DNA of 64,000 nucleotides. Source: an uncultured Pelagibacteraceae bacterium. Its GTDB lineage: Bacteria > Pseudomonadota > Alphaproteobacteria > Pelagibacterales > Pelagibacteraceae. The translations under genes and the position numbers were made by a program. Position 1 is the first letter of the stretch. Every line of letters begins with the position of its first letter. Positions 477 to 49,081 of this stretch are shown piece after piece. The stretch covers positions 44,223 through 108,222 of the forward strand of contig CACBRW010000002.1 in NCBI GenBank assembly GCA_902541745.1. The letters run 5' to 3'. The notes below the pieces were generated by a model that worked only from the letters and a program-made list of their open reading frames with translations, was not told where the DNA came from and did not search any database.

Positions 477-1958
477 ATGACAATTAATTTTAAAGCACCA
501 GAGATAAAAGAGCTACAGCCACGACTACTAGTTTTAGGAGTTGGTGGAGCTGGCGGAAATGCAATTAATGAAATGATTGAAAACAATCTACAGGGAGTTG
601 AATTTATTGCAGTAAATACTGATGCTCAAGATTTGAAGCTGAGTAAAGCAAAAACAAGAATTCAAATTGGTTTAAATTTAACAAAAGGTTTAGGAGCTGG
701 AGCAAAGCTTGATATTGGACAAGCTGCTGCTGATGAGTCTTTAAATGAAATTGTAAATACACTTCAAGGTGCAAACATGGTGTTTATTGCAGCTGGTATG
801 GGTGGTGGAACGGGCACTGGTGCAGCTCATGTTATCGCAAGAGCTGCTAAAGAATTAAATATATTGACTGTAGGTGTTGTGACTCTTCCGTTTTTATATG
901 AAGGCCCCTCTAGAATGAGAAGAGCACAACAAGGTTTGGAAGAGCTAAGAAAACATGTTGATACAATAATTGTTATACCTAACCAAAACCTATTCAAAAT
1001 AGCAAACGAACAAACAACATTTGAAGAGTCTTTTAATCTTTCAAACAATGTTTTAATGCATGGTGTTCAAAGTATCACTGATTTAATGGTCAGACCTGGT
1101 TTAATTAATTTAGATTTTGCTGATGTTGAAACTGTAATGGCAGCAATGGGTAAAGCTATGATGGGAACGGGAGAAGCTGAAGGAGAAGGTAGAGCTCTTA
1201 AAGCAGCAGAGATGGCAATTAGCAATCCATTAATTGATGATTATACTTTAAAAGGAGCAAAAGGTTTACTAGTAAATATTACTGGTGGGAAAGATCTTAA
1301 ACTTTTTGAAGTTGATGAGGCTGTAAATAAAGTAAGAGCAGAAGTTGATCCTGAAGCAGAATTAATTATTGGAGCAATTACTGATACTGAGCTAGATGGA
1401 AAAATGAGAGTTTCAATTGTTGCAACATCATTAGATGGACAACAACCTGAGTCAAAATCAGTAGTGAATATGGTTCATAGAATTCAAAACCGTAATCCTG
1501 GTTATTCTGATTTTTCAAATATGGGGTCATCTCAATCTTTTAATTTTTCCAACACAACAGCATCAAACCCCGTTACACATGGTGCCAATGCTTTGAAGCT
1601 TGAAAATGAGATTATCCAAGAACAACAAACTGAAAGTTCTCATAATCAAATGATGAATGAAGAAGTTGTTCAAAATACTAACATGGAAAGTGAAAGTATA
1701 GTTGAAGATAATTCAGTTAATGAAATGGAAAAATCGTTTGCACAAGAGGCTTTGGAAACTAATCATGAAGAATCACTTGAGCAAAATGTTGATGAGCAAG
1801 TTTCTAATGATCTCAAGGAATTTGGAGTTGATTCTGATGCGCCAGATTTATTCAGTTCAGAAACTGAAACCTCAAGCTCAGATGAACTTTTATCTCCTGA
1901 TCAGGAGGAAGAAGATGACCTTGAGATACCAGCATTCTTAAGAAGACAAAAAAATTAA
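477..1958 (+). CDS. ftsZ: Cell division protein FtsZ
   Basis: Tubulin signature [12 protein letters not shown]-terminal [12 protein letters not shown]-terminal conserved peptide [12 protein letters not shown]. Confidence 0.97.
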
Positions 1959-4982: not shown

Positions 4983-7826
4983 ATGCTTCTAGGAAACTAC
5001 TTTCATAAAATAAATAAAAATTATAAAAATTTTTCTTTTTCAGGAATTTCATTTAACACAAAGAGTATTAAAAAAAATAATATTTTTTTTGCAATCAAAG
5101 GAAATAGTATTGATGGTAATAAATTTATACTTAAAGCAATTAAAAAAGGATCTAAAATTATTGTAAGCGAAACAAAAACAAATCCATTCCAAAATGGAAT
5201 TTTGTATATCCATACAAATAATGTAAGAAAATTATTAGCTGAAACAGCTTTTAAAATTTATAAAAAAAAACCAAAAAATTTAATTGCAGTTACCGGCACA
5301 AACGGAAAATCATCAGTTGCAGATTTTTATTATCAAATATTAAAATTAAATAACAAAAAAGGTGCTTCAATTGGCACATTAGGTGTTAAATCAAAAAGTA
5401 TTAATTTGAATTTATCTAATACCACAATAGATCCAATCAAATTAGCTAAAATATTAAGTAAGTTAAAAGAACAAAAAATAGAAAATGTAATTATGGAAGC
5501 CTCAAGCCATGGTTTAAAGCAAAATAGATTAGATGGTTTAAAGTTTAATTCAGGTATATTTACTAATCTATCCCAGGATCATATTGATTACCATAAAAAT
5601 TTAAAAAACTATTTAAATGCAAAACTTTATTTATTTAAAAACCTAATCTCAAGAAAAGGAAATGTAATTACAGATAAATTAATACCTGAGTTTAAAAACA
5701 TAAAAAAAATCGCAATTAATAAGAAATTAAAATTGCATACACTTCATGATGAGAAAAATAATCTAAAACTTTTATCTCATAATTTTAAAGGAGAGGGTCA
5801 ATTTCTTAGATTTAAATTAAATAGCTCAATGAGGGATATAAATTTAAATTTAATTGGAAAAATACAATTAAAAAATGTTTTAATGGCAATAATTGCAGCA
5901 AAATATAGCGGTATTAGTTTAGATAAAATTTTAAATACAATTCCAAAATTAAAACCAGTTGAGGGAAGGTTTGAAAAAATTGGTAAAATTAAAAATCAAT
6001 CAAAAGTAATTCTTGATTATGCTCATACACCTGATGCTTTAAAAACCTGTCTTCTAAATCTTAGAGAACAATTTCCTAACAAAGCAATCACAGTTCTATT
6101 TGGTTGCGGGGGAAATAGGGATCAAAATAAAAGATCAAAAATGGGGAAAATAGCTAGTGATTTTGCAGATAGTATCATTCTTACAAATGATAATCCTAGA
6201 TTTGAAAATCCTCAAAAAATAAGAAGAGATATAAAAAAAGGAATCAAAAAAAAAAGAATTACAGAAATTTCTAATAGAGCAATGGCAATAAAAAAAGCTA
6301 TTCATAATTTGAATTCAGGTGATATTTTGTTAGTCGCTGGAAAAGGCCATGAGAAAACACAAGATATTGGAAATAAGAAAATTTTCTTTTCAGATAGAAA
6401 AGTAATTTTAAACACTATTAAAAATAAAAATAATAATTTATCAAATAATTTAAAATTAAATATAATTAAAGATACAGCTAAAATTAAAAAATTGTCCACC
6501 TCCACATCTTTAAAAACAGCAAGAATTAATTCTCGAGAAGTTACCAGAAATGATATTTTTTTTGCTATTAAAGGAAAAAAAAATGACGGTAATAAATTTG
6601 TTGCACAATCATTCAATAGAAAAGCATCGTTGGCTGTAGTAAACAGATTTCAAAATAACTTAAATAAAAGTCGTCAGATTAAAGTAAAAAATACTTTAAG
6701 ATTCTTAACAGATATTTCAAAAACTTTTAGAAAAAATATTGATACAAATATTATAGCTATCACAGGCAGTTGTGGCAAAACTACACTTAAAGAATTGCTG
6801 GGCAATGTATTAAGTAAAATTACCAAAGTAAGTATTTCTCCAAAATCTTATAACAATAAATTTGGGGTTCCTTTGAGTCTTTTTAATTTAAAACAAAATG
6901 ATGAGTTTGGAATTTTAGAAGTTGGAATGGATAAAAAAGGTGAAATTGATTATTTATCAAAAATTATAGAACCAGATGTTGGAGTGATAACAAACATAAA
7001 TTATGCACATGCTAAAAATTTTAAAAATATTAAGCAAATTGCTTTAGCAAAATCTGAAATTATAAAAAACATAAAACCTTATGGTTATGTTGTATTAAAT
7101 GCAGATGATGGTCATTTTCGATTGCATAAAAAAATTGCCAAAGAAAAAAAAATTAATGTAGTCTCTTTTGGTATTAAAAATCATAGAGCAGATATTAAAT
7201 TAATTAATACAAAAACTTTTGGAAAAAAATTTAAAATTAATATTGATTTAAATAATAAAAAAAAGGATTTTATATTATCAAACGATTTTCAAAACAATAT
7301 ATATAATACACTTGCTGCTTTAGCAGTTATTAGTATTTATAAAAATATATTTAAACTAAATGAAAATATTTTTCTCAATTTCAAAATTCCTGGGGGAAGA
7401 GGGGATCATTCTGTAATAAAATTTAATGATAAAAAAATTAATTTAATTGATCAAAGCTATAATTCAAATCCTCTATCATTAAAATCAGCAATAAAAAATT
7501 TTGATAAAATAAAATCCAAAAAATCAAATAAATATTTATTAATTGGTGACATGTTAGAGCTGGGTAGTCATTCTAAAAAACTTCATAAATCTATTGCTCC
7601 AATAATTAATCAAACCAAGATAGATAAGGTATTTGTCAAAGGTAAAATGGCATCTACAATATTTGCAGGTATCTCAAAAGCCAAAAAAGGTAGGATTTTA
7701 TTAAACAAATCTCAAATTATTGAATTGATAAGAAAAGATTTAAATAATAATGATTATTTAATGATTAAGGCCTCACTTGCGACAGGATTCAACGACATAG
7801 TAAAAGATCTGAAAGGATTGCATTAA
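4983..7826 (+). CDS. murE-murF: Fused UDP-MurNAc-tripeptide synthetase MurE / UDP-MurNAc-pentapeptide synthetase MurF
   Basis: 947 aa with two Mur ligase units: TGTNGKSS...DNPR (meso-DAP type MurE) and TGSCGKTTLKELLGNV (MurF). Confidence 0.93.
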   Translation: MLLGNYFHKINKNYKNFSFSGISFNTKSIKKNNIFFAIKGNSIDGNKFILKAIKKGSKIIVSETKTNPFQNGILYIHTNNVRKLLAETAFKIYKKKPKNLIAVTGTNGKSSVADFYYQILKLNNKKGASIGTLGVKSKSINLNLSNTTIDPIKLAKILSKLKEQKIENVIMEASSHGLKQNRLDGLKFNSGIFTNLSQDHIDYHKNLKNYLNAKLYLFKNLISRKGNVITDKLIPEFKNIKKIAINKKLKLHTLHDEKNNLKLLSHNFKGEGQFLRFKLNSSMRDINLNLIGKIQLKNVLMAIIAAKYSGISLDKILNTIPKLKPVEGRFEKIGKIKNQSKVILDYAHTPDALKTCLLNLREQFPNKAITVLFGCGGNRDQNKRSKMGKIASDFADSIILTNDNPRFENPQKIRRDIKKGIKKKRITEISNRAMAIKKAIHNLNSGDILLVAGKGHEKTQDIGNKKIFFSDRKVILNTIKNKNNNLSNNLKLNIIKDTAKIKKLSTSTSLKTARINSREVTRNDIFFAIKGKKNDGNKFVAQSFNRKASLAVVNRFQNNLNKSRQIKVKNTLRFLTDISKTFRKNIDTNIIAITGSCGKTTLKELLGNVLSKITKVSISPKSYNNKFGVPLSLFNLKQNDEFGILEVGMDKKGEIDYLSKIIEPDVGVITNINYAHAKNFKNIKQIALAKSEIIKNIKPYGYVVLNADDGHFRLHKKIAKEKKINVVSFGIKNHRADIKLINTKTFGKKFKINIDLNNKKKDFILSNDFQNNIYNTLAALAVISIYKNIFKLNENIFLNFKIPGGRGDHSVIKFNDKKINLIDQSYNSNPLSLKSAIKNFDKIKSKKSNKYLLIGDMLELGSHSKKLHKSIAPIINQTKIDKVFVKGKMASTIFAGISKAKKGRILLNKSQIIELIRKDLNNNDYLMIKASLATGFNDIVKDLKGLH

Positions 7827-14675: not shown

Positions 14676-15590
14676 TTGAAAAAAAAAGTACTTATATTAT
14701 CTGGAGGAATTTCTAAGGAGAGGATAATCAGTCTCGATACCGGACTACAGGTTTCTAAAGAATTAAAAAAAAATGGTTACAAAGTTAAAATATCTGAGCC
14801 AGACAATAATTTAGAAAAAAATATAAAAAATTTTAAACCAAGCGTAATATTTAATGCATTACATGGTCAATTTGGAGAAGATGGATATATTCAAAGTGTA
14901 CTAGAGAGATTTAAAATTCCATATACTCACTCAGGGGTAATAGCATCATCAATTGCAATGGACAAAGAAATCTCAAAAAAAATATTTCTTAAAAATAAAA
15001 TAAAAACCCCTAAATTTTTTACATATACTTATGACGAGCCAACATCCAGAATAGTAAAAAAAATAAATAAAAAATTCAAATTTCCAGTTGTAGTTAAACC
15101 TATCAACGAGGGGTCGAGTGTGAATGTTTTTATAACCGATAAGAAAAATTTGATCAAAATTCTCTACAGACTTCAAAACTATAAAAAAGTTTTGATAGAA
15201 CAATTTATTGCTGGAAGAGAAATTCAAGTTGCAATTATGGGTGATAAAAAATTGGGAGCCATTGAACTTAAACCAAAAAGAAAATTTTATGACTATCGAG
15301 CAAAATATGACACAAAAGCTAAAACTCAACATATAATACCTGTTGATATACCCAAATCTCAATTTAAAAAGTTAATGAATATAGCTCATAAAGCACACAA
15401 AATAATAGGATGCAAAGGAGTAACAAGATCAGATTTTAAATTTTTTAAAGGAAATTTTTATTTATTAGAAATTAATACTCAACCGGGAATGACCAAACTT
15501 TCTTTAGTACCTGAAATAGCTTTACATAAAGGTATATCTTTTATTAAATTAATAGAATGGATGTTGAAAGATGCATCAACGAAAAAGTAA
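14676..15590 (+). CDS. ddl: D-alanine:D-alanine ligase (TTG start)
   Basis: ALHGQFGEDG, EINTQPGMTKLSLVP motifs; dcw context. Confidence 0.93.
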   Translation: MKKKVLILSGGISKERIISLDTGLQVSKELKKNGYKVKISEPDNNLEKNIKNFKPSVIFNALHGQFGEDGYIQSVLERFKIPYTHSGVIASSIAMDKEISKKIFLKNKIKTPKFFTYTYDEPTSRIVKKINKKFKFPVVVKPINEGSSVNVFITDKKNLIKILYRLQNYKKVLIEQFIAGREIQVAIMGDKKLGAIELKPKRKFYDYRAKYDTKAKTQHIIPVDIPKSQFKKLMNIAHKAHKIIGCKGVTRSDFKFFKGNFYLLEINTQPGMTKLSLVPEIALHKGISFIKLIEWMLKDASTKK

Positions 15591-16242
15591 AATAATATTA
15601 ATTTATTTTTTTTTATTAATAATTATTGCGTCAATTAATAATAATAATTTGAATAATCTAAAATTTGATCAAATAAAAAATGTTGAAATATTAGGATTGG
15701 ATAAAAAAGAAAATAATATTCTTTTAACAAAAATTCAAAATTTAAAATTAGGAAATATATTCTCGCTAAACTCAAATGAAATTGAAAAATTAATTGAATC
15801 TAATTCATTAGTTGAAAGATATAAAGTATTTAAAAAATATCCGAATAAAATAGAAATAAAAATTCAGAAAACAGAATTCTTGGCAAAAATAAATGATGAT
15901 GGAAAAATTTTTATTATAGGTTCAAATGGAAAACTAACACCAGACAAATTAAAATATAATGACCTACCTTTTATTTTTGGCAAACCTGATATAATTGAAT
16001 TTCTTAAATTTAAAAAAGTGATAGATGAATCTAAATTTTCTTTTCAACAAATTGATGATTTATATTTTTTTCCTTCAAAAAGATGGGATCTAAAGCTTAA
16101 AAATAATATTTTGTTAAAATTACCAAACCGATTAAATCTAGAGACTATAAATAATGTGTATAACTTTTTAGAAAATTATAATGGAAAAAATTTCAATATT
16201 GTTGATGCTAGATTAGAAAATCAAATTATTTTACATGAATAA
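15571..16242 (+). CDS. ftsQ: FtsQ/DivIB-like division protein
   Basis: Single N-terminal TM, POTRA-like segment (VEILGLDKKENN...), FtsQ_DivIB-like region; between ddl and the ftsA position. Confidence 0.75.
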   Translation: MHQRKSKIILIYFFLLIIIASINNNNLNNLKFDQIKNVEILGLDKKENNILLTKIQNLKLGNIFSLNSNEIEKLIESNSLVERYKVFKKYPNKIEIKIQKTEFLAKINDDGKIFIIGSNGKLTPDKLKYNDLPFIFGKPDIIEFLKFKKVIDESKFSFQQIDDLYFFPSKRWDLKLKNNILLKLPNRLNLETINNVYNFLENYNGKNFNIVDARLENQIILHE

Positions 16243-16936
16243 AGAAGTTGAACTAGAAATTTATTTAGTAGTATCAACAAAAAAATTTGGAATATATTTA
16301 TTTGATAAATATGAACTTAAAAACTTGTATAAAGATGAATTAGTTTTTAATGAAAAAATAAATTCTATCAATTTTAATAATTTAAAAAAATTTCTTGATA
16401 AAAATATTTTTAAAATTGAGAAGATAAGTAGAAAATTTGTTGAAAATATATTTATCATATTTGATGATCAGAAAATATTTAACTTGCAAATAGGGATTAA
16501 AAAAAAAAATTATAACTTTAAAATAAAAAGAGAATATCTTCAAAATTATCTCATTGATGCTAAAGATTTATTTATGGAAAATTATCAAACTGAAAAAATT
16601 ATGCATATGATAGTTAATAAATATACTTTTGACGGTAAAAGCTATGCTTCATTACAAGATAATATAGAATGTCAAAACGTTGCATTAGAAATTCAATTTA
16701 AATCAATTTCATATAATAAAATTTATGAACTAAATAAAATTCTAGAAAATTATCAAATAAAAATAACCAAGTTTATAGATGGAAGCTATGTAAAAAATTT
16801 CATTAATGAAGATGCTAAATTAATTGAAATGGCTCATAAAATTTTAAATGGATATAATGAAAATGAGGTAATGTTTGTGTCAAAAAACCCTAAAAAACTT
16901 AATTTTTTTGAAAAATTTTTTCAATTATTTAGTTAA
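16235..16936 (+). CDS. FtsA-like protein, apparently truncated (SHS2/1C-like region and C-terminal amphipathic helix, actin-like ATPase core missing)
   Basis: Position directly after ftsQ; internal EKIMHMIVNKYTFDGKSY resembles the FtsA 'ilH.ip..Y.iDg' segment; 233 aa against about 420 aa for a normal FtsA; C-term LNFFEKFFQLFS amphipathic. Confidence 0.55.
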   Translation: MNKEVELEIYLVVSTKKFGIYLFDKYELKNLYKDELVFNEKINSINFNNLKKFLDKNIFKIEKISRKFVENIFIIFDDQKIFNLQIGIKKKNYNFKIKREYLQNYLIDAKDLFMENYQTEKIMHMIVNKYTFDGKSYASLQDNIECQNVALEIQFKSISYNKIYELNKILENYQIKITKFIDGSYVKNFINEDAKLIEMAHKILNGYNENEVMFVSKNPKKLNFFEKFFQLFS

Positions 16937-16999: not shown

Positions 17000-17920
17000 G
17001 TGTCGTATTTAACTCAAAAAACAATAAAAAATAATGTCAAGTTTAATGGCGTTGCTTTACATAGTGGACTGAATGTAAATTTAATTATAAAACCAGCACA
17101 TCCTGATTTTGGAATAGTTTTTAAAAGAATAGATCTAAATAGTAATAATTTAGTTTGCCCAAATTTTGCAAATGTTACCAATACATCATTGAACACAACA
17201 ATTGAGAATGAATTTGGAGTTAAAGTTTCAACAATAGAGCATCTTATGGGCGCATTGTTTTGTTTAGGTATTGATAATGCTTTAATCGAAATTGATAATG
17301 AGGAAGTACCTATATTAGATGGTTCTGCAAAAAATTTCATAGAAAGAATTAGTTCAGTCGGAATAGAAATTTCTAACTCTCCAATTAAAATTATTAAAAT
17401 AAATAAAGAAGTAAATTTTTCAGACGGAGCAAGGTATATAACTATAAGACCTTCAACTTTAACTCTAGATATAGATTTTGAGCTAAAATACGATAACCAT
17501 ATAATTGGAAACCAAAAAAATAAAATTAAAGTTTATGAGGACGATTTATCAGATGTTTATAATTCAAGAACATATTGTTTATATGAAGATATTGAATTAA
17601 TTAAAAAAAGAGGTTTAGCAAAAGGTGGAAGTTTAGATAATGCAATTGTTGTCAAAGATGATGAAATTATGAATCCAGAAGGATTGAGAAATAAAAAAGA
17701 ATTTGTAAATCATAAAATACTTGATTGCATTGGTGATTTATATACGTCTGGTTACAGAATTGTAGCATCAGTCAAATGTTCTCAAGGTGGTCACTACTTA
17801 ACTAACCAATTGTTAAGAAAAGTTTTTGCAAATAAAGAAAATTTTTCTATTTTAGAAATTAAAGAAAAAAATCTACCACATACACTTATTAATAAGAATT
17901 TATTAAGGTCAATAGCTTAA
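17000..17920 (+). CDS. lpxC: UDP-3-O-acyl-N-acetylglucosamine deacetylase LpxC (GTG start)
   Basis: TQKTIKNNVKFNGVALHSGLNV, STIEHLMGAL, VNHKILDCIGDLYTSG motifs. Confidence 0.96.
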   Translation: MSYLTQKTIKNNVKFNGVALHSGLNVNLIIKPAHPDFGIVFKRIDLNSNNLVCPNFANVTNTSLNTTIENEFGVKVSTIEHLMGALFCLGIDNALIEIDNEEVPILDGSAKNFIERISSVGIEISNSPIKIIKINKEVNFSDGARYITIRPSTLTLDIDFELKYDNHIIGNQKNKIKVYEDDLSDVYNSRTYCLYEDIELIKKRGLAKGGSLDNAIVVKDDEIMNPEGLRNKKEFVNHKILDCIGDLYTSGYRIVASVKCSQGGHYLTNQLLRKVFANKENFSILEIKEKNLPHTLINKNLLRSIA

Positions 17921-34706: not shown

Positions 34707-35480
34707 ATGAAAAAACTTAAACTGTTTGCTTTGGCAGCTATGGCCTTGATAGGTTTTTCAGGTATAGCTATTGCAGCAGACGCAACGATGTTGATGCAAG
34801 ATGACTTCGTAGGAATTTCATTCTGGGTTATCTCTATGGGAATGTTAGCAGCTACTGCTTTCTTTTTCATGGAAGCAGGCAATGTCGCATCAGGCTGGAG
34901 AACATCAGTTATTGTTGCTGGTCTAGTAACTGGTATTGCATTCATACACTACATGTACATGAGAGAAGTATGGGTTGCTACTGGAGACTCACCAACTGTT
35001 TACAGATACATTGACTGGTTAATCACTGTGCCACTACAGATGGTAGAATTCTATTTAATTCTAGCAGCTATTGGTAAAGCAAATTCTGGAATGTTCTGGA
35101 GATTATTAATTGGTTCATTAGTAATGCTAATCGGTGGATACTTAGGTGAAGCAGGATATATCAATGCTACACTTGGTTTCATCATCGGTATGGCAGGTTG
35201 GGTATACATTCTTTATGAAGTATTCTCAGGTGAAGCTGGTAAAGCTGCAGCAAAAAGTGGTAACAAGGCTCTTGTAACCGCTTTTGGTGCAATGAGAATG
35301 ATCGTTACAGTAGGTTGGGCAATTTACCCATTAGGTTATGTATTTGGTTACTTAACTGGTGGTGTAGACGCTAACTCACTAAACGTTGTTTACAACTTAG
35401 CTGACTTCATTAACAAAATTGCATTTGGTCTAGTAATCTGGGCTGCTGCAACTAGTTCTGCGGGAAGAAGAGCTAAGTAA
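34707..35480 (+). CDS. Proteorhodopsin, proton-pump type, predicted blue-absorbing (Q at position 105)
   Basis: YIDWLITVPLQMVEFYLILAA (D97/Q105/E108), H75 in AFIHYMYMR, Schiff-base K in FINKIAFGLVIW, signal peptide. Confidence 0.97.
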   Translation: MKKLKLFALAAMALIGFSGIAIAADATMLMQDDFVGISFWVISMGMLAATAFFFMEAGNVASGWRTSVIVAGLVTGIAFIHYMYMREVWVATGDSPTVYRYIDWLITVPLQMVEFYLILAAIGKANSGMFWRLLIGSLVMLIGGYLGEAGYINATLGFIIGMAGWVYILYEVFSGEAGKAAAKSGNKALVTAFGAMRMIVTVGWAIYPLGYVFGYLTGGVDANSLNVVYNLADFINKIAFGLVIWAAATSSAGRRAK

Positions 35481-44247: not shown

Positions 44248-45057
44248 ATGAATATAAGTCAAAAAAAATTAGAAAAATCTAAAGGCAGATTAGAAATAAA
44301 AATAAAAGATCAAAATTTACAAAAACTTTATCAACAAGGATCTTTAAAAGCTTTGATGCCAGATTTTCATGAAAATTTAAAACAATTGATGCTTATCAAT
44401 ACTGCTGGTGGAATTACTTCTGGAGATGAATACGACTACGAATTTGAAATTTATAGTTCGGATCTTTGTATTTCAACACAGGCGGCAGAAAAAATTTATA
44501 GTGGGTTTGGTAATCCAGCCAATTTAGAAATTAATTTAAATTTATTAAACAATTCTAGTTTGTTTTGGTTACCTAAAGAATTAATTTTATTTAATAATTG
44601 TAACTTAAAACGAAAAATTAATTTTAATTTATCTAAAGATTCAAATTTACTACTTTGTGAAAATATTATTTTTGGACGAACTTCCATGAATGAGGTATTT
44701 GAAAAAGGTTATTTTTCAGATTTTTGGAACATTAATATAGATAATAAACTAATTCATACAGAAGCAATAAATACAAATTTATTTGAGAAAAAATATTTGA
44801 ATAGTTTCTCAACATTAAATAATAATTCTGCAGTTGCGACAATTATTATTGTAGGAAATAAATTTTTAAATAATGTGAATAATCTATCTGAAACTCTAAC
44901 AAACAATGAAATTACAACTTCCAATTTTTCTCAATGGGATAACAAATTGATCGTAAGGCTTTTATCTAAAGATAGTTATAATCTTAAATTTGCAATTGAT
45001 AAAATTTTGACTTATTTTTTTGAAGGTTCAAAAATACCTAAAATATGGAATATATAA
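44248..45057 (+). CDS. ureD: Urease accessory protein UreD/UreH
   Basis: LINTAGGITSGDEYDYEFE; first gene of urease operon. Confidence 0.9.
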   Translation: MNISQKKLEKSKGRLEIKIKDQNLQKLYQQGSLKALMPDFHENLKQLMLINTAGGITSGDEYDYEFEIYSSDLCISTQAAEKIYSGFGNPANLEINLNLLNNSSLFWLPKELILFNNCNLKRKINFNLSKDSNLLLCENIIFGRTSMNEVFEKGYFSDFWNINIDNKLIHTEAINTNLFEKKYLNSFSTLNNNSAVATIIIVGNKFLNNVNNLSETLTNNEITTSNFSQWDNKLIVRLLSKDSYNLKFAIDKILTYFFEGSKIPKIWNI

Positions 45058-45360
45058 ATGAAACTAACTCCTAGAGAAAAAGATAAACTTCTAATAAGTC
45101 TTGCAGCAATTGTTGCTAAAAACAGACTATCAAAAGGTATAAAATTAAATTATCCAGAAGCAATAGCTTTAATAACAGATTTTGTAGTAGAGGGAGCTAG
45201 AGAAGGTAAAAGTGTTGCAGAACTGATGGAGGCAGGAGCTCATGTTATTAAAAAAAAGGATTGTATGGAAGGCATTCCAGAAATGGTTAAGGAAGTTCAA
45301 GTAGAGGCTACTTTTCCTGATGGAACTAAATTAGTAACAGTGCACAAACCTATTAGGTGA
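45058..45360 (+). CDS. ureA: Urease gamma subunit
   Basis: [39 protein letters not shown]. Confidence 0.97.
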
Positions 45361-45674
45361 TAATTATTATGAAGCCAGGTGAAGTAATTACAAAAAAAGA
45401 GGAAATCGACCTAAATAAAGACTCCAAAGTTACTAAGATAAAAATTTCAAATTCCGGAGATAGACCTGTGCAAGTAGGAAGCCATTATCATTTTTTTGAA
45501 ACAAATGAGTATTTAGTTTTTGATCGAGAATTAGCATATGGAAAGAGATTAAATATTCCTTCAGGAACTGCTGTAAGATTTGAGCCAGGTCAATCTAAAG
45601 ATGTTGAGCTTATAGAAATTAATGGATCAAAAAAAATATACGGGTTCAATAAGAAAGTTATGGGTAATTTATAA
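45357..45674 (+). CDS. ureB: Urease beta subunit
   Basis: [32 protein letters not shown]. Confidence 0.97.
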
Positions 45675-47380
45675 TGGCTAAAATTTCTAGAGCAGCTTAT
45701 GCGGATATGTATGGGCCTACAACAGGAGACAAAGTAAGGCTCGCAGATACTGAATTAATTATTGAGGTTGAAAACGATCTAACAACTTATGGTGAAGAGG
45801 TAAAGTTTGGTGGTGGAAAAGTAATTAGAGATGGGATGGGTCAATCTCAAATTAGTAGAAAAAAAGGAGCTGCAGATACAGTTATTACCAACGCTTTAAT
45901 AGTTGATGTAAATGGAATTTATAAAGCTGATGTTGGTTTAAAGGACGGAAAAATATTTGAAATTGGTAAAGCTGGTAATCCCGACACTCAATCTAAAGTA
46001 AATATAATTATTGGTCCAGGAACAGAGATTATTGCAGGTGAAGGAAAAATTTTAACAGCAGGAGGTTTTGATAGTCATATTCATTATATATGTCCCCAAC
46101 AAATTGATGATGCATTGCACTCAGGTATCACAACTATGCTAGGAGGAGGGACTGGGCCTGCTCATGGAACACTTGCAACAACGTGTACACCCGGACCATG
46201 GCACATACAAAGAATGATTCAATCTGCCGATGGTTTTTCTATGAATTTAGCTTTTGCTGGGAAAGGAAATTCTTCATTACCAGAAGGTCTTGAAGAACAA
46301 ATTCTAGCAGGAGCTTCAGCTTTAAAATTACATGAGGATTGGGGAACCACTCCTGGAGCAATTGATAATTGTTTAAATATTGCTGACAAAAACGATGTGC
46401 AAGTAATGATTCATACAGACACTTTAAATGAAAGTGGGTTTGTAGAAAATACTATCAAAGCAATTAACAAAAGAACTATTCATGCTTTTCATACAGAAGG
46501 TGCTGGCGGTGGACATGCACCAGATATAATTAAAGTTTGTGGAGAAGAGTATGTTATTCCTTCCTCAACAAATCCAACCAGACCATATACGGTTAATACA
46601 ATAGAAGAACATTTAGATATGCTAATGGTTTGTCACCATCTTGATAAATCTATTCCAGAGGATGTAGCATTTGCAGAAAGTAGAATAAGAAGAGAAACAA
46701 TCGCAGCAGAAGATATTCTTCATGATATGGGTGCTTTTTCAATTATTGCTTCAGATAGTCAGGCTATGGGTAGAGTTGGAGAAGTTATAATTAGAACTTG
46801 GCAAACAGCACATAAAATGAAAGTTCAAAGAGGAAGTTTACCAGAGGAAAAAGGAGACAATGATAACTTTAGAGTTAAAAGATATTTAGCAAAATATACA
46901 ATTAATCCTGCAATTGCTCATGGGATTTCAAAACATATTGGAAGTATTGAAAAAAATAAACGTGCAGATTTAGTTTTATGGGACCCAGCATTTTTTGGTG
47001 CAAAGCCAGAAATGATACTAATAGGAGGAAGTATAGCCTGTGCACAAATGGGAGACCCAAATGCATCAATTCCAACTCCGCAACCAGTATACACTAGACC
47101 AATGTTTTCATCATTTGGAACTTCTTTAGAGAAATCCTCAGTAATTTTCACAAGCAAACTAGCTCTTGAAAAAAATTCTTTAAAAGATGCAAGTATTAGA
47201 AAAAACTTATTACCTGTAGAAAACACAAGAGCCATTTCTAAAAAGGATATGATTTTAAACAATAAGTGTCCAAAGATTGAAGTTAATCCTGAAACTTATG
47301 AAGTAAAGGCTGATGGTGAGATAATTACCTGTGAACCAGCTAAAGAACTCCCTTTGGCACAAAGATATTTTATGTTTTAG
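45674..47380 (+). CDS. ureC: Urease alpha (catalytic) subunit
   Basis: [28 protein letters not shown] (carbamylated Lys), MVCHHLD (active-site His). Confidence 0.98.
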
Positions 47381-47383
47381 CTT

Positions 47384-47827
47384 ATGGATAATTGTTTTTT
47401 AATAGTTAATAAAATTGCCAAAAATAAAGCAAAAGATCACATATCTTTATCTTATGATGAGCGATTTTTAAGAAGAAAAAAACTTGTTTCAGACAATGGT
47501 TTTGAATTTTTAGTAAATTTACCAGAGACAAAATCACTTTCAGAAAATCAAGCGTTTAGGCTTCAAAGTGGAAATTTGATTTTAATAAAAAACAAAAAGG
47601 AAAGTTTATTAGAAATAAAAGGAAAAAATTTAATGCAACTTATTTGGCATATTGGAAATAGGCATATGCCATGTCAAATTGAAAAAGATAGAATTTTTAT
47701 ACAGTATGATGAAGTAATAAAAAAAATGATATTAAAATTAGGTGGAAAGGTTAAGAAAGTTTTAAGACCTTTTAAACCAGAGGGAGGAGCATATGGAATT
47801 GGTAGAACCCATAGCCATAAACACTAA
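47384..47827 (+). CDS. ureE: Urease accessory protein UreE
   Basis: LIWHIGNRHMPCQIE metal-binding motif; C-terminal HSHKH. Confidence 0.92.
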   Translation: MDNCFLIVNKIAKNKAKDHISLSYDERFLRRKKLVSDNGFEFLVNLPETKSLSENQAFRLQSGNLILIKNKKESLLEIKGKNLMQLIWHIGNRHMPCQIEKDRIFIQYDEVIKKMILKLGGKVKKVLRPFKPEGGAYGIGRTHSHKH

Positions 47828-48473
47828 ATTAAAAAATAAAAAAGATTTGAAAGAGTCTTTGCAAATTCTTCAAACTTGGTTTTCACCATCATTTCCTATT
47901 GGAAGTTTTTCATATTCTCATGGTTTAGAAGCGATGATTAATGATAATTTAATTAAGTCAAAAAAAGATATTTTGGATTATTTAAAATGTATCTTAAAAT
48001 ATGGAACTGGTAGAAATGATATAATTTTAATGAAATATACCTATCAGGGAGAAGAGATAAATGAACTCGCTCTATCACTTTGTCCAAGTAAGGAAAGAAA
48101 AATCGAGTCTATTGAAATGGGTAATGCATTTAGAAAAGTTTTAGCTGATAGTTGGGATTTTAAAATTCAGGAAAATACTGCATATCCAATTGCAGTTGCT
48201 AAAGCTGCTAAACACTTTGGTATACCTTTAAACTTAACGATAGTATCTTATCTACAATCTTTTGTATCAAACCTAATAAATGTTTGTATTAAACATATAC
48301 CAATTGGACAAAAAATTGGTCAAGACTGTATAATTGAGAATTATGATTTAATTAGAGAAATAGAAAAAGAAAGTGAAAATTTAAATTTAGAAGACTTAGG
48401 TGGAATTTGTTTTAATAGTGATATCTACAGTATCAAGCATGAAAATTTGAAAACACGAATTTATAAGACATGA
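47793..48473 (+). CDS. ureF: Urease accessory protein UreF
   Basis: [24 protein letters not shown]. Confidence 0.92.
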
Positions 48474-49081
48474 AAAATATAAATGGACCATTAAAAGTTG
48501 GAATAGGTGGACCTGTTGGTGCAGGGAAGACAAGTTTAACAGCTGAATTGTGTAAATTTTTGTCAAAGAAAATTTCTATGGCTGTAATATCAAACGATAT
48601 TTATACAAAAGAAGATGCAGAATTTTTAATGAAAGTCCAAGCCTTACCTTTAGAGAGAATTAAAGGAGTTGAAACAGGAGGATGTCCACATACGGCAATT
48701 CGTGAAGATGCTTCAATTAATATGCTTGCTGTAGAAAATATGAAAAAAAAATTTCCTGATCTTGATTTGATTTTAATTGAGTCTGGTGGAGATAATTTAG
48801 CAGCAACTTTTAGTCCTGAATTAGTTGATCTATCTATTTATGTTATTGACGTTGGTATGGGTGGAGATATCCCTAGAAAAGGTGGCCCTGCCATTCAAAA
48901 ATCAGACTTGTTAATTATTAACAAAACAGATTTAGCTCCTCATGTAGAAGTTAATCTTGAAACCATGAAAGAAGACGTAAAAAAGGCCCGAAATGGCTTA
49001 CCTTATGTTTTTTGCCAGATGAAAAAGCAAATTGGTGTTGAAGATGTTGCTAAATTCTTATTTTCATCTGGTGGACTATAG
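48470..49081 (+). CDS. ureG: Urease accessory GTPase UreG
   Basis: [32 protein letters not shown]. Confidence 0.97.

Follow-up and report, generated by a model that had tools for sequence, protein, structure and literature searches.

A short FtsA orthologue lacking domain II at the division locus of SAR11 bacteria

SAR11 are the most abundant bacteria in the ocean, and FtsA is familiar as an ATP-dependent actin homologue that tethers FtsZ. In a 64,000-nucleotide stretch of DNA from an uncultured Pelagibacteraceae bacterium (hereafter the window), the open reading frame at the ftsA position directly after ftsQ encodes only 233 amino acids. This raises the question of whether the gene is a genuine ftsA and, if so, what an FtsA of this size can still do. 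The initial annotation, made from the letters alone, had described it as an 'ATPase-less FtsA' that keeps the SHS2/1C region and the membrane helix and has apparently lost the actin ATPase core. The start of short ftsA overlaps the end of ftsQ by 8 nt, and its end lies 63 nt from lpxC, the distance given at the outset. The locus and the parts of the protein are arranged as follows.

15571..16242, + strand: ftsQ (Pfam POTRA_1 and FtsQ_DivIB_C)
16235..16936, + strand: short ftsA (233 aa), a domain II-less FtsA orthologue (ORF, profile search, AF2, Foldseek)
16235..16474, + strand: subdomain 1A, first part, residues ~1-80 (AF2, alignments, column counts)
16475..16711, + strand: subdomain 1C/SHS2, residues ~81-159 (hhalign, alignment, AF2)
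16712..16852, + strand: subdomain 1A, second part, residues ~160-206 (AF2, alignment with long forms)
16799..16813, + strand: approximate site of the missing domain II, residues ~189-193 (short/long alignment)
16853..16900, + strand: linker with conserved N-x-N-E-V (conservation among short forms)
16901..16933, + strand: predicted C-terminal amphipathic membrane-targeting helix, NFFEKFFQLFS (conservation, hydrophobic moment, AF2)
17000..17920, + strand: lpxC, the downstream neighbour (Pfam LpxC, E 2.8e-91)

As a single sequence, the window protein had no FtsA match in Pfam, NCBIfam or the PDB and did not reach the curated FtsA score of Pfam/NCBIfam; it also had no match to Pfam SepF (PF04472). 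Its relationship to FtsA was evident from profiles. We collected 51 short SAR11 orthologues, all at the same locus and of the same layout, and aligned them with 37 long forms using hhalign (probability 99.9%, E 8.8e-31). When the PDB was searched with the profile of the 51 short forms, the top four matches were all FtsA (E 7.3e-5, 2.6e-4, 1.4e-3 and 2.5). The long-form profile matches solved FtsA structures at E 1.3e-31, and long SAR11 forms pass the Pfam FtsA cut-off; on PF02491, one long form scores 24.1 bits, the cut-off being 25.4. AlphaFold (AF2) modelled the window protein with a pLDDT of 85.9 and a pTM of 0.79, and a Foldseek search with this model returned FtsA for each of the first 19 PDB matches, the best being the V. 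maritimus FtsA-FtsN complex (7Q6I, E 2.7e-11). As a control, the long form of G066, a genome of the window's long-form sisters, was predicted to fold as a complete FtsA. The model, Foldseek and the alignment to long forms all place a 1C/SHS2 subdomain inserted in 1A, in agreement with the first reading of the sequence. Profile homology and the position after ftsQ thus assign the protein to FtsA. Given 51 same-locus orthologues of identical layout, the short ORF is not a chance frame; it is a real FtsA orthologue under purifying selection, with a dN/dS of 0.16-0.31 (0.12-0.27 for long ftsA, with ftsQ similar).

Within the genus, the same locus encodes either a short protein (about 220-248 aa) or a long one (370-401 aa). 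The 174 genus matches listed comprise 103 intact short frames, 51 intact long frames and 20 partial ones; 83 of the 103 intact short frames listed measure 232-236 aa. Full-length orthologues in close relatives had been named as a possible sign of an assembly deletion. Such orthologues do exist, but a deletion of that kind is not implied, since within the genus short ftsA outnumbers long ftsA and is intact in one-contig genomes (G062, G063, G067 and G070). It might still be supposed that an assembly error cut ftsA, or that another gene supplies domain II in trans, and the window's own genome is indeed a draft, 82% complete and split into 55 contigs. Against this, the same layout recurs in more than 100 genomes, and a domain II profile found nothing convincing in 16 short-form genomes, five of them in one contig (best E 0.004), whereas it gave E<1e-44 in four long-form control genomes. 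Neither a second full-length FtsA, which the initial annotation had raised as a possibility, nor a stray domain II was found in the window's own genome or in short-form relatives whose genomes are complete. A PF14450 match elsewhere in the own genome, considered as a second FtsA, proved to be MreB. Supply in trans or an assembly cut is refuted for the complete genomes tested, and overall we regard it as scarcely credible. Elsewhere in Alphaproteobacteria, the matches listed in a PF02491 survey, a family that misses the SAR11 short form, had frames of ~414 aa or longer, barring three that lie on small contigs or close to where a contig starts.

A second objection is that short ftsA is a decaying remnant with little function. 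The protein has diverged far enough for Pfam and NCBIfam to miss it, and two genomes carry frames broken at A/T homopolymers, both of which would fit decay. The selective constraint described above argues otherwise, as do the near-constant length of the intact frames across divergent species, the invariant residues and the conserved membrane helix. Apparent further erosion to 54-180 aa was also considered and set aside; the shorter remnants that we fetched stop at contig ends, save for the two broken frames. We consider decay very improbable and largely refuted, and short ftsA is neither an assembly nor a pseudogene artefact. The broken frames lie in L112 (G012), at ~17100-17160, and in L111 (G184), and could be sequencing errors or real frameshifts. 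Separately, contigs of draft genomes frequently stop inside ftsA (e.g. L097-L110), perhaps because the locus varies between strains.

Alignment of the two forms shows that a single internal deletion of ~140 aa, which takes 2A and 2B, separates short from long. None of the 51 short forms has the DxG (phosphate 1) motif in its 1A, and the phosphate 2 and adenosine ATP motifs belong to domain II and are missing with it. Most long forms retain the ATP motifs, and an R274/E277 pair on a domain II helix is invariant among them. The proposed loss of the actin ATPase core therefore holds for domain II and the DxG motif, but not for 1A, which is retained up to and including its last helix (residues 196-204 by AF2 and alignment), and the label 'ATPase-less FtsA' is right by anatomy. 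Subdomain 2B carries the FtsZ site of FtsA, and the ATP pocket is built from 2B, 1A and 2A (PMC8998562). Longitudinal filament contacts are made between 2A and 2B and lateral ones via 1C, and the cleft between 1A and 1C is the binding site of FtsN (PMC7613929). Without domain II, the short form thus has little left of the ATP pocket, and the known site for the FtsZ peptide and the longitudinal contact between 2A and 2B are missing altogether. By descent it counts as an orthologue of FtsA, but judged by its sequence it is no standard member, as it lacks two defining features, domain II and the ATP motifs.

What is kept is 1A, 1C and the C-terminal helix. The first part of 1A consists of beta strands and a helix at 47-65, and conservation of 1A is modest; in 1C the conserved region surrounds H124, and in the linker E211 is invariant among the 51 short forms. 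The C-terminal helix (224-232 in the AF2 model) is the best-conserved segment, at 3.4 bits per column, and its hydrophobic moment of 0.73 fits the predicted membrane-targeting role that had been supposed from its appearance. The lost functions can be named from the missing domain; those retained we infer.

We also evaluated FtsZ and the candidates for holding it to the membrane. The initial annotation had pointed to a canonical FtsZ C-terminal peptide.

477..1958, + strand: ftsZ, between mraZ and rsmH instead of after ftsA (ORF, synteny)
1920..1955, + strand: FtsZ C-terminal peptide, 12 residues (comparison of short- and long-FtsA genomes)

This peptide is indeed canonical: each of the 38 short-form genomes read has EIPAFLRRQ, as do almost all long-form ones. 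The order mraZ-ftsZ-rsmH is the same in other SAR11 loci that reach that far, including one of a second family. Among ten SAR11 genomes, no SepF scored above the cut-off (PF04472) and ZipA was not found; ZapA, which is not known as a membrane tether, was detected. A canonical FtsN was not detected through the SPOR family in any of the ten, so the known ligand of the 1A-1C cleft may be absent or unrecognisable. The only SPOR match belongs to an RlpA-like lipoprotein and was rejected as an FtsN candidate. Its gene (L183 1459-2220, L181 1459-2220) lies between homologues of D,D-carboxypeptidase and lytic transglycosylase, and its Pfam match occurs in several short-FtsA genomes and in none of the long-FtsA genomes tested.

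These data allow us to propose, with slightly more confidence than doubt, that FtsA has here been reduced to domain I (1A and 1C) plus the membrane helix and acts as a nucleotide-independent, non-filament-forming adaptor, with FtsZ held elsewhere. We infer both the adaptor function and the loss of FtsZ tethering. Short FtsA would sit on the membrane, its 1A-1C cleft would bind membrane proteins of the divisome by their short cytoplasmic tails, and the protein may pair via 1C. It would no longer tether FtsZ, whose unchanged C-terminal peptide would instead dock on a different partner, one that long-FtsA relatives also possess; such a pre-existing partner would make domain II dispensable. The failure to find canonical FtsN, SepF or ZipA in the ten genomes counts against this adaptor model, and an unchanged peptide would equally be expected if the short protein still binds it. 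The main rival is that the FtsZ peptide now binds to domain I, for instance in the cleft between 1A and 1C or on the surface of 1A that the loss of domain II has laid bare. Equal conservation of the peptide with short and long FtsA, the lack of any SepF or ZipA match and the conservation of the membrane helix, the highest of any segment, all suit such a new site; the modest conservation of 1A does not, and we consider it the unlikelier arrangement, though one to be taken seriously.

Known systems offer several comparisons for the adaptor model. With full-length FtsA (PF14450 and PF02491; 1E4F, 4A2A, 7Q6D, 7Q6F, 7Q6I) the short form shares the locus after ftsQ, the 1A-1C fold and the C-terminal amphipathic helix, but it is without domain II, a complete ATP pocket, the 2B FtsZ site, the 2A-2B contact and DxG. 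PilM of type IV pili has an FtsA fold with a 1C-type subdomain (Foldseek about 2e-5) and holds the short cytoplasmic tail of PilN in the equivalent cleft (PMC7613929). Unlike short FtsA, it has both actin domains, binds nucleotide and works outside the divisome. The cytoplasmic domain of GspL/EpsL from type II secretion was the next-best Foldseek match after FtsA (1.7e-6), a likeness drawn from the fold-search score; it is a membrane-associated scaffold of a cell-envelope machine and belongs to a different system. SepF and ZipA, as alternative FtsZ membrane tethers, would fill the role that the 2B site has left, but they have no sequence relation to short FtsA and were not found in the SAR11 genomes tested.

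The distribution of the two forms was compared with trees of ftsA and its neighbours. In a tree of ten neighbouring proteins, short forms fall in at least five places among long ones, requiring at least five long/short changes, and one single short clade is rejected (AU p=2.4e-6). The tree of ftsA domain I groups 46 of 47 short forms together; on its own it requires two changes and is compatible with a single origin (AU p=0.32). Imposing the complete neighbour-gene topology on ftsA was strongly rejected.

The grouping in the ftsA tree would be explained if one ancestral short allele had been passed among SAR11 lineages through recombination at the conserved ddl-ftsQ-ftsA-lpxC locus, an account that concerns the history of short FtsA and not its function. 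Consistent with this, the domain I tree rejects placing L152 next to its local long relatives (p=0.005), L152 being poorly placed on a long branch. The neighbour tree opposes such a spread, and the grouping itself stems from columns outside 1C, which need one change, while the 1C columns need five, as fits convergence after domain loss. In addition, 1C columns are compatible with placing the window's group next to its long sisters (G066-type, p=0.25), an arrangement that non-1C columns reject (p=0.0004), and the short L137 lies close to the long L082 in both trees. We give the recombination account somewhat less than an even chance. The column split speaks for repeated loss, after which the face formerly covered by domain II would have converged. 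Tentatively, and as a possibility short of probable, we suggest that at least five independent losses of domain II took place in one SAR11 genus, each leaving a near-identical membrane adaptor of 230-240 aa; tethering and polymerisation by FtsA would then be dispensable and another FtsZ membrane tether would exist.

The same trees bear on how FtsZ is held. The stronger clustering of short forms by non-1C columns is what a remodelled face would produce, and so suits a new FtsZ site on domain I; if there were several losses, however, that site would have had to arise anew each time. Loss in several lineages and an unchanged FtsZ peptide suggest a pre-existing redundancy, which is why we favour a shared partner.

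Probably, then, a large part of SAR11 has a previously undescribed way of linking its division ring with the membrane. Our literature search was of open-access papers, with subscription journals and preprints outside its scope, and found no earlier description of a domain II-less or truncated SAR11 FtsA. In many free-living and very abundant species, selection has kept one half of FtsA and done away with the half that binds FtsZ and ATP. The two roles of FtsA are thereby genetically separated in species that can be compared, and the short form leads us to expect that SAR11 has either a new FtsZ site or a tether for FtsZ that is yet to be discovered. If repeated loss is true, FtsA tethering and polymerisation are dispensable in free-living bacteria and the role of domain I is not. 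Cultured strains may, we presume, exist for both long and short forms, which would make these predictions directly testable.

Other genes of the window also deserve mention. A 947-aa ORF at 4983-7826 looks like a MurE-MurF fusion, and the same long ORF occurs in loci of the genus; in other SAR11 genera (L123, L124, L133, L134) the MurE-MurF match covers only about 461-477 aa, suggesting separate genes. By eye, 44248-49081 holds a urease operon in the order ureD-A-B-C-E-F-G, and 34707-35480 a proteorhodopsin-like gene.
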